This document shows positions 57,187-58,971 of a DNA stretch of 64,000 nucleotides, piece after piece. The number at the start of each line of letters is the position of its first letter. Within the stretch, counting starts at the first letter, position 1. This DNA is from Salinicoccus sp. Bachu38. GTDB taxonomy: Bacteria; Bacillota; Bacilli; Staphylococcales; Salinicoccaceae. The translations under genes and the position numbers were made by a program. A model generated the notes under the pieces. It saw nothing but the letters and a program-made list of their open reading frames with translations. It was not told where the DNA came from and made no database searches. The stretch lies in assembly GCF_038561955.2 (NCBI RefSeq), contig NZ_CP138333.2, positions 1,302,001-1,366,000 of the forward strand, given 5' to 3'.

Positions 57187-57624
57187 ATGAATATGGATTT
57201 CAATATGTATATGAACGATGTCGTCAGTCAGGCAAGAAGCGAAATGAGGGATTCCGGCTATACGGAATTGACCACGCCGGAAGAAGTCGACCAGCATCTT
57301 TCAAAAGAAGGAACCGCACTTGTAATGGTCAACTCGGTATGTGGCTGTGCCGGCGGCATTGCACGTCCGGCTGCCAAACACGCCCTCAATTATGACAAAC
57401 TGCCGGACCAGCTGCTCACTGTATTTGCCGGACAGGACAAGGAAGCGACTGAACATGTCAGGGAAAAGGCGCCTGAATACCTCCCATCCTCCCCGTCATT
57501 TGCCCTCTTCAAGAATGGCCAGGTCGTGGATATGATCGAGAGGCATGAAATTGAAGGTCATGAAACAATGAGTGTCATCACCAACCTGCAGGCATGGTTC
57601 GAAGAACACGGCAAAGAAATCTGA
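57187..57624 (+). CDS. brxB: Bacilliredoxin BrxB
   Basis: This 145-residue thioredoxin-fold protein removes bacillithiol from oxidised protein thiols. The CGC active site is C52-G-C54 in [15 protein letters not shown], typical of BrxA/BrxB (YphP/YqiW). Position directly after bkdB matches YqiW. Presence implies bacillithiol as the main low-molecular-weight thiol. AAGGAG precedes the ATG. Confidence 0.93.
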
Positions 57625-57634
57625 TGAACGAAAA

Positions 57635-57662
57635 AAAGAGGTCCCGAGGGACCTCTTTAATT
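57635..57662. terminator. Terminator between brxB and the Prli42-like gene
   Basis: AAAGAGGTCCC pairs with GGGACCTCTTT around GA, flanked by A and T tracts; usable on both strands. Confidence 0.82.
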
Positions 57663-57665
57663 TGG

Positions 57666-57767
57666 TTACACTGTTGTCAGCATGCTGACTCCGAAAAGCA
57701 GGCCCGAGATGACAATGAGAATTATCATAAACCAGATCACTGCTTTCTGAACTTTTTTGTTGTTCAT
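57666..57767 (-). CDS. Prli42-like miniature membrane protein
   Basis: This 33-residue frame reads MNNKKVQKAVIWFMIILIVI and continues with one membrane helix ending SMLTTV. AAGGAT lies four bases before the ATG on the minus strand, and it lies in a gap that otherwise holds no gene. Length, the NKKVQK start and the single helix match Prli42, the membrane anchor of the Listeria stressosome conserved in Firmicutes. The partner stressosome genes are not in this window. Confidence 0.72.
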   Translation of the reverse strand: MNNKKVQKAVIWFMIILIVISGLLFGVSMLTTV

Positions 57768-57849
57768 AAAACCATCCTTAAGAATTTGTTCTTTTAATTA
57801 TAATACACGTCTACTGTACAATCAACTCAACTATTGGAGGAAGCTATTT

Positions 57850-58971
57850 ATGAACAAGGACAGACTCGTCGATCAATTTATGGAAATGGTCCAGATCGAT
57901 TCCGAAACCGGTCATGAAAGGGAAATGGCCGACTATCTGATCAGGACATTCAAAGACATGGGTATCGAAGCCCATGAAGATGATACACAGGAGATAACCG
58001 GCTACGGGGCGGGCAACATACTCGTCAAGCTCAAAGGAGACAACTCCAAGGCCGAACCGGTCTATTTCACAGTGCATATGGATACCGTCGCACCCGGTGT
58101 GGGTGTAAAACCGTCCATCGATGGGGACTATATCGTCAGCGATGGTTCAACGGTCCTCGGGTCGGATGACAAGGCGGGGATTGCGGCACTCATCGAAGCT
58201 ATTCATTCCATTAGGGAATCCGGCATGTGCCACGGTGACATCGAAATCATCATCACCGTCGGGGAAGAGTCCGGGCTCGTGGGGGCGAAGGCATTTGATG
58301 CTTCCCAACTGAAAAGCAGGTTCGGCTATGCGATCGACTCCACGGGCAAAGTAGGTACTGTGGTTACCTCCGCACCGACCCAAAGCAAGATTGAAGCGCA
58401 TATACATGGCAAAAAGGCACATGCAGGCGTCGCTCCGGAAACAGGCGTCAGTGCGATCAACATCGCGGCCCGCGCGATCAGCCAGATGAAACTCGGTCGT
58501 ATCGATGAAGAGACGACGGCGAACATCGGCCGTTTTGAAGGCGGCAGCGCGACGAATGTCGTCACAGACTATGTTTATCTGCTGGGTGAGGCGAGAAGCT
58601 TGGATGATGCCAAGATGGAAGCTCAGACAAAGCATATGAAGGAGACCTTCGAACGCATCGCCGAAGATATGGGCGGCCGTGCAGAAGTGGATACAAAAGT
58701 GATGTATGCCGCACTGAATGCATCCAAAGACTCGAATGTCGTCAGGACGGCAGTACAGGCGATAGAAAATATCGGCCGCAGACCCGACCTGATCAGCCTC
58801 GGCGGCGGGAGTGACGGCAATATATTCGCCGGAGCAGGACTGGATACGGCGATACTCGGACTTGGATACGAAAACATCCATACGACGGAAGAAAAAATGC
58901 CGATAGAGGAACTGCATAAAATTACTGAACTGGTCATTGAAATCATCAAAGTCCAGAATGATAAGGAGTAG
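57850..58971 (+). CDS. M20-family peptidase, PepT/YqjE-like
   Basis: This 373-residue metallopeptidase has the M20 zinc motifs: HMDTVAPG, the LGSDDKAGIA aspartate, the catalytic pair in TVGEESGLVGAK and a dimerisation domain (about 185-290) with HGKKAHAGVAPE. It resembles tripeptidase T and corresponds to Bacillus YqjE, which lies upstream of gndA. The substrate is probably a small peptide. ATG 57850 follows TTGGAGGAAG; the frame extends upstream without support. Confidence 0.88.
   Translation: MNKDRLVDQFMEMVQIDSETGHEREMADYLIRTFKDMGIEAHEDDTQEITGYGAGNILVKLKGDNSKAEPVYFTVHMDTVAPGVGVKPSIDGDYIVSDGSTVLGSDDKAGIAALIEAIHSIRESGMCHGDIEIIITVGEESGLVGAKAFDASQLKSRFGYAIDSTGKVGTVVTSAPTQSKIEAHIHGKKAHAGVAPETGVSAINIAARAISQMKLGRIDEETTANIGRFEGGSATNVVTDYVYLLGEARSLDDAKMEAQTKHMKETFERIAEDMGGRAEVDTKVMYAALNASKDSNVVRTAVQAIENIGRRPDLISLGGGSDGNIFAGAGLDTAILGLGYENIHTTEEKMPIEELHKITELVIEIIKVQNDKE

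Follow-up and report, generated by a model that had tools for sequence, protein, structure and literature searches.

Does a 33-codon open reading frame (ORF) of Salinicoccus sp. Bachu38 encode the small membrane protein Prli42, and does its presence imply a stressosome, as the first-pass annotation of this locus had proposed? The window that we analysed, a stretch of 64,000 nucleotides, belongs to a genome assembled as one contig of 2,617,944 bases (99.98% complete).

The prli42 gene and its neighbours

The ORF runs from 57767 to 57669 on the minus strand and ends with a TAA stop codon at 57668-57666; its 33-aa product is MNNKKVQKAVIWFMIILIVISGLLFGVSMLTTV. Coordinates, strand, length and the preceding ribosome site were exactly as first annotated, as was the position in the gap between brxB and an M20 peptidase gene. 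The features of the locus are:

57187..57624, plus strand: brxB, BrxA/BrxB family bacilliredoxin, convergent neighbour (TIGR04191, 190.8 bits)
57635..57658, no strand assigned: two-way terminator-like stem of 10 pairs, T-rich at its tail on either strand; brxB and prli42 converge on it
57666..57767, minus strand: prli42-family gene (33 codons and a TAA stop); product with a basic N-terminal tail (K4, K5, K8), then one predicted membrane helix
57772..57779, minus strand: ribosome-binding site of prli42, AAGGATGG, 4 bases 5' of the ATG
57797..57825, minus strand: sigma-70-type promoter-like site of prli42, TTGATT-17 nt-TATAAT, 10/12 consensus matches
57850..58971, plus strand: PepT-like M20 peptidase gene, divergent neighbour (TIGR01883, 444.3 bits)

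By itself the promoter-like site is weak proof, because the region held two such sites compared with a mean of 1.0 in shuffled sequences. Eleven of 12 congeneric loci, our own included, share both hexamers (the twelfth, L018, has TTGAAT), and a similar terminator-like stem lies 3' of the prli42 stop codon in the 12 loci. Judged from these signals, prli42 is probably transcribed from a housekeeping promoter. A search of the 64-kb window for one simple form of a SigB-type consensus, GTTT-N14-18-GGGTA, was uninformative (0 matches, 0.99 expected by chance).

The reading frame is kept in relatives, a check that the first-pass annotation had itself suggested. In the 30 loci fetched first from the same family (f1), the product is always 33 aa long and preceded by a ribosome-binding site when the start codon closest to the match is used; two further members of the family have 32 aa. 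The pN/pS ratio of prli42 was 0.156 for the congeneric set (12 loci) and 0.253 for the family set (30 loci), values that are indices and not tests because locus pairs share history and pS in the family set (0.76) is near saturation. The shifted sense frames gave 1.12 and 1.92 in the congeneric and 0.99 and 1.90 in the family set. One antisense frame was also low (0.29 and 0.43, respectively), which we read as the shadow of the constrained sense frame. Some close relatives also keep open an overlapping plus-strand ORF (57594-57797, 67 aa); as a gene of its own it was rejected, as it is likely best read as another shadow of the minus-strand prli42.

The product scored 35.6 bits with the NCBIfam model for Prli42, NF033880 (cut-off 27.5; positions 1-30 of 31), with E=5.8×10−9 in the NCBIfam scan and E=1.4×10−7 in the whole genome, and no other NCBIfam model exceeded its cut-off for this product. 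The profile thus supports the earlier designation as Prli42-like. The accompanying label 'DUF4044-like' found no such backing: a Pfam scan of the product returned only DUF1980, below its cut-off (E=0.026). The ORF had also been called overlooked. It is a genuine gene, but 'overlooked' is doubtful since NF033880 is already in the NCBI annotation library and catches prli42. The basic start and single membrane helix that had been described agree with the tail residues K4, K5 and K8, with a mean Kyte-Doolittle hydropathy of 2.81 for residues 9-27 and with an AlphaFold2 model that has a single helix from residue 4 to 32 (mean pLDDT 90.8, pTM 0.48). By the positive-inside rule, the N-terminal tail is presumably cytosolic.

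When the Salinicoccus peptide was used as query against 60 genomes including its own, 34 matched, namely its own, 32 others of f1 and one of family f2; at that sensitivity there was no match in families f3 and f4. Prli42 was found in all 33 genomes of f1. The NF033880 profile matched 32 of 35 sampled genomes of f3, which we infer to be the Staphylococcus side. The Bacillus subtilis control genome matched it too.

The chromosomal position of prli42 was compared in 120 loci, comprising every locus from the first returns and about one further locus for each genus, picked by hand; they include the 30 first f1 loci and the f1 loci L094 and L095, and 60 had flanks of 1.5 kb and 60 of about 3 kb. Within the two nearest genes 5' of prli42, 117 of the 120 loci have a PepT-like peptidase, a carboxyltransferase or a methylmalonyl-CoA epimerase/mutase-type gene (cluster c3 merges epimerase and mutase genes). 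Within the two nearest genes 3', 114 have brxB, bkdB, an aromatic acid exporter, an L,D-transpeptidase or a lipoyl transferase. Both sets are present on the strand opposite prli42 in 111 loci, our own among them, by a criterion derived here, not a published one, whose neighbour sets were picked after inspection of the data. The peptidase, brxB, glyoxalase-type epimerase, carboxyltransferase, exporter, L,D-transpeptidase and lipoyl transferase were named by profile; bkdB and the mutase are what we take the remaining neighbours to be. This conserved position supports orthology of Prli42.

Starting from the peptidase instead, prli42 was found within the flanks (≤2 kb) at 15 of 80 named peptidase loci, including those of Salinicoccus, Jeotgalicoccus, Mammaliicoccus fleurettii and Macrococcus hajekii. 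In the staphylococcal relatives of f3 (M. fleurettii, M. hajekii), prli42 is likewise upstream of a PepT-like peptidase gene. These relatives differ from Salinicoccus in that an aromatic acid exporter gene usually separates prli42 from brxB, and in a helix core resembling SLILTG or ALLLTS where Salinicoccus has SGLLFG. One peptidase locus, L158, comes from a record titled Arthrobacter beigongshangensis; its peptidase is 57% identical to that of the window and ranked amid Bacillales loci, and the assembly is perhaps mislabelled or contaminated.

Hydrophobic stretches of 30 residues are easily mimicked, and a chance ORF merely resembling Prli42 might be suspected from the short length and from the failure of phmmer to reach f3 with the Salinicoccus peptide. 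The low pN/pS of 0.156 together with a fixed length, the conserved promoter, ribosome site and terminator, and the neighbour genes kept at 111 of 120 loci make this possibility negligible; pN/pS and locus position rule it out. Its sequence and genomic context identify the ORF as a genuine Prli42 orthologue, a miniprotein that has a basic N-terminal tail and is predicted to cross the membrane once.

Stressosome genes in Salinicoccus and other Bacilli

What is reported of Prli42 in Listeria comes from papers of which parts were available. RsbR binding there involves K4, K5 and R8 of Prli42 and three glutamates of the RsbR N-domain, and the interaction was called essential for stress survival (PMC6614362). 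Prli42 is also reported to place RsbR1 at the membrane, and its loss gave no stress phenotype (PMC9840623), while another study, as quoted in PMC12153296, found it unnecessary for membrane association of RsbR1. The discovery paper, as quoted in a review (PMC8508746), described lower macrophage survival of a prli42 mutant. In the available portion of an article on small proteins of Staphylococcus aureus (PMC8195425), Prli42 appears in the reference list only. Taken from these excerpts, the literature on Prli42 function is in disagreement.

We searched the Salinicoccus genome (G000) for the genes that a stressosome would need. There was no match for the RsbR N-domain (Rsbr_N, PF08678) and none for RsbT at E≤1×10−6, and neither was found in three other f1 genomes of the class sample. 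RsbR and RsbS proteins carry STAS domains; the genome has only two of these (E≤0.001), belonging to RsbV and to a 484-aa frame. In the 32 other f1 genomes the STAS search likewise found a single small STAS protein per genome, every further match lying in a frame of at least 480 aa. The small STAS protein of Salinicoccus (C1:2084740-2085039) is RsbV and lies inside a staphylococcal-type rsbU-rsbV-rsbW-sigB locus, in which RsbW matches TIGR01924 and SigB TIGR02941. This locus (L073, C1 about 2083240-2086539) contains, in order, a cut gene that is presumably mazF, then rsbU, rsbV, rsbW and sigB. RsbU has a SpoIIE domain and retains its N-terminal domain, RsbU_N (PF08673, 59.5 bits), in a genome that gave no RsbT match. 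S. aureus is not known to have rsbRST.

These results contradict the proposal that Prli42 implies a stressosome. Prli42 could act as stressosome anchor here too, tethering RsbR to the membrane and sensing stress; it belongs to the right family, has K4 and K5 and is basic at residue 8, the positions reported for RsbR binding in Listeria in the available part of PMC6614362. The lack of Rsbr_N and RsbT matches in this genome and the three relatives, and the STAS inventory of all 33 family genomes, make this scarcely credible, and for this assembly it is refuted, barring a missing replicon that carries the genes. As the genome yielded no RsbR, RsbS or RsbT, we conclude that Prli42 is not a stressosome anchor in this Salinicoccus and very probably has another job.

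How often Prli42 occurs apart from a stressosome was assessed in 398 Bacilli genomes. It was found in 194 (161 above the curated cut-off, 33 below); because the protein is very short, absence from a genome can be a miss, and negatives for Prli42, Rsbr_N and RsbT are the sample minus the listed positives. Rsbr_N occurred in 60 genomes, all of which also have Prli42, which favours a true link between RsbR and Prli42 in those lineages. Among the 194 Prli42 genomes, 134 are without Rsbr_N and 124 without both Rsbr_N and strong RsbT, defined as E<1×10−35 by a threshold set after inspection of the data. Strong RsbT without Rsbr_N was present in 52 genomes, 10 with Prli42 and 42 without. SigB did not reach its curated cut-off in 56 of the 194 Prli42 genomes (36 in family f7, 6 in f39); these were picked from best E-values, the strongest being 7×10−63 at a cut-off of ~1×10−94.

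At the level of families, all 15 with Rsbr_N fall among the 37 of 57 that have Prli42 (p=4×10−4), a value that ignores phylogeny and a comparison in which two of the 37, f10 and f36, rest on one weak match each; genomes inside a family are not independent. Neither Rsbr_N nor strong RsbT was found in the 32 Prli42-positive genomes of f3. Within the 398-genome sample, globin-type RsbR implies Prli42, and Prli42 implies neither RsbR nor SigB. The occurrence of Prli42 without RsbR and without SigB indicates that it has a further function. We do not claim the stressosome-less distribution as unpublished, our literature search having covered open-licence papers. As a separate observation, genomes of family f18 (e.g. 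G073, G093, G109) have SigB well above cut-off and are absent from the lists of RsbT-like and Prli42 matches.

Candidate functions of Prli42

We consider it likely that the Salinicoccus protein is a Prli42 orthologue without a stressosome role, that its membrane role is older and that RsbR tethering was added in some lineages. Prli42 would then be an older Bacilli membrane miniprotein with a putative partner, and its link to RsbR a later addition: in lineages with RsbR of the non-haem-globin type, the Prli42 tail would tether RsbR, and Salinicoccus, Jeotgalicoccus and their staphylococcal relatives would have retained only the older role. Purifying selection, the family match, the conserved locus, the lack of Rsbr_N, RsbT and further small STAS proteins in this genome, the carriers without Rsbr_N or SigB, the pattern of conservation in tail and helix and the conserved promoter support this explanation. 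Against it, the presence of Prli42 in every Rsbr_N genome and its absence from 42 of the 52 genomes with strong RsbT only fit a real dependence of RsbR on Prli42. The commoner basic residues at positions 2 and 7 in Rsbr_N genomes, a helix periodicity that varies with the stretch analysed and the 33 Prli42 matches below cut-off also count against it.

One may go further, with somewhat more doubt than confidence, and regard Prli42 as misnamed: an ancient Bacilli membrane protein whose main job, done via one helix face, would need neither stressosome nor SigB, and on which RsbR-type stressosomes came to depend later. Such a later dependence would account for the pattern seen in this sample, where Prli42 accompanies every RsbR N-domain and often occurs without RsbR.

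Two other functions may be considered. In Staphylococcales it might feed the SigB pathway directly via RsbU, whose N-domain is kept in Salinicoccus (59.5 bits with PF08673) in a genome without detected RsbT, and Prli42 is present in 33 of 33 genomes of the family. The 56 Prli42 genomes without SigB above cut-off mean that this putative route could only be a local use; we regard it as unlikely. By analogy with the one-helix subunits known from oxidases, Prli42 might also serve a respiratory complex, for instance cytochrome bd, as a small accessory component. The available part of PMC12153296 mentions 'Cytochrome D' as copurified with Prli42, and Salinicoccus has cydA. The gene is present, however, in 44 of 48 Prli42-positive and in 25 of 32 Prli42-negative genomes (of the latter, G035 is negative only by the weaker peptide search), and four genomes with Prli42 (G045, G064, G086 and G183) have no cydA match, which rules out an obligate bd subunit; a sequence search of solved structures with Prli42 gave no convincing match to any chain (best E 2.8). 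A subunit role of this kind is very improbable.

CydX, KdpF and AcrZ are small one-helix partners of membrane complexes. Prli42 could resemble them in manner of working, as a one-helix protein acting on a larger complex; the likeness is one of mode of action only, and Prli42 differs from them in having no convincing sequence match to a solved chain.

Returning to the older membrane role that we favour, the Salinicoccus gene is a new example of a known family, and its interest lies mainly in the carriage of Prli42 without a stressosome. In the papers available in part, Prli42 is described as a stressosome membrane anchor, and carriers without stressosome or SigB suggest another conserved job; such carriers are clean systems in which to find its true role. 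For annotation, the presence of prli42 is not evidence of a stressosome.

Conservation in the tail and along the helix

According to the accessible parts of the Listeria literature, Prli42 of L. monocytogenes is of similar length (31 aa, PMC8508746; 33 in Salinicoccus) and shares a basic N-terminal tail (K4, K5 and R or K at position 8) ahead of a single membrane helix. It differs at position 8, which is R in Listeria (PMC6614362) and K in Salinicoccus, and the Salinicoccus genome has no detected RsbR, RsbS or RsbT to anchor.

Column conservation was computed from 107 distinct peptides of the 120 loci (effective number about 49). Weighted entropy was low at G26 (0.66), M14 (0.84), K8 (0.90) and W/Y12 (1.00) and higher in the tail at K4 (2.28) and K5 (1.84); after the start, the least variable columns are G26, M14, K8, W/Y12, V/I11 and S/T21. 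The strongest constraint thus falls on position 8 and the helix, with K4 and K5 freer to vary.

In loci from genomes with Rsbr_N, the fractions with a basic residue at positions 4, 5 and 8 were 0.60, 0.66 and 0.91, compared with 0.73, 0.83 and 0.97 in those without. Basic residues were commoner with Rsbr_N at position 2 (0.52 vs 0.11) and position 7 (0.36 vs 0.11), so that shaping of the tail by RsbR may have occurred; the net charge of the tail did not differ (+3.3 against +3.0, p=0.27). Four loci from RsbR-bearing genomes (L096, L098, L099 and L103) have tails without K4 and K5 and with R at positions 2 and 7 (e.g. MRNETFRK, MRNNFFRK). Some lineages may have remodelled the tail together with RsbR; alternatively, the genomes may simply be related.

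Conservation along the helix was periodic, with a p value that depends on the residue stretch chosen (0.009 for residues 9-28, 0.019 for 10-27 and 0.057 for 9-31), and the conserved face lies near residues 11, 15, 18, 22 and 26. From the sequences, we read it as a packing face, accompanied by a basic residue that would set the topology. In the proposed mechanism this face (about 11/12, 14/15, 18, 21/22 and 26) would pack on another helix, belonging either to a second copy of Prli42 or to a putative membrane protein common to the families that carry Prli42. K8 and nearby basic residues would set the topology or offer a cytosolic docking point.

Two loci encode longer relatives of Prli42, L126 (47 aa) and L125 (37 aa), which have longer basic tails before a similar helix, with starts chosen by script.
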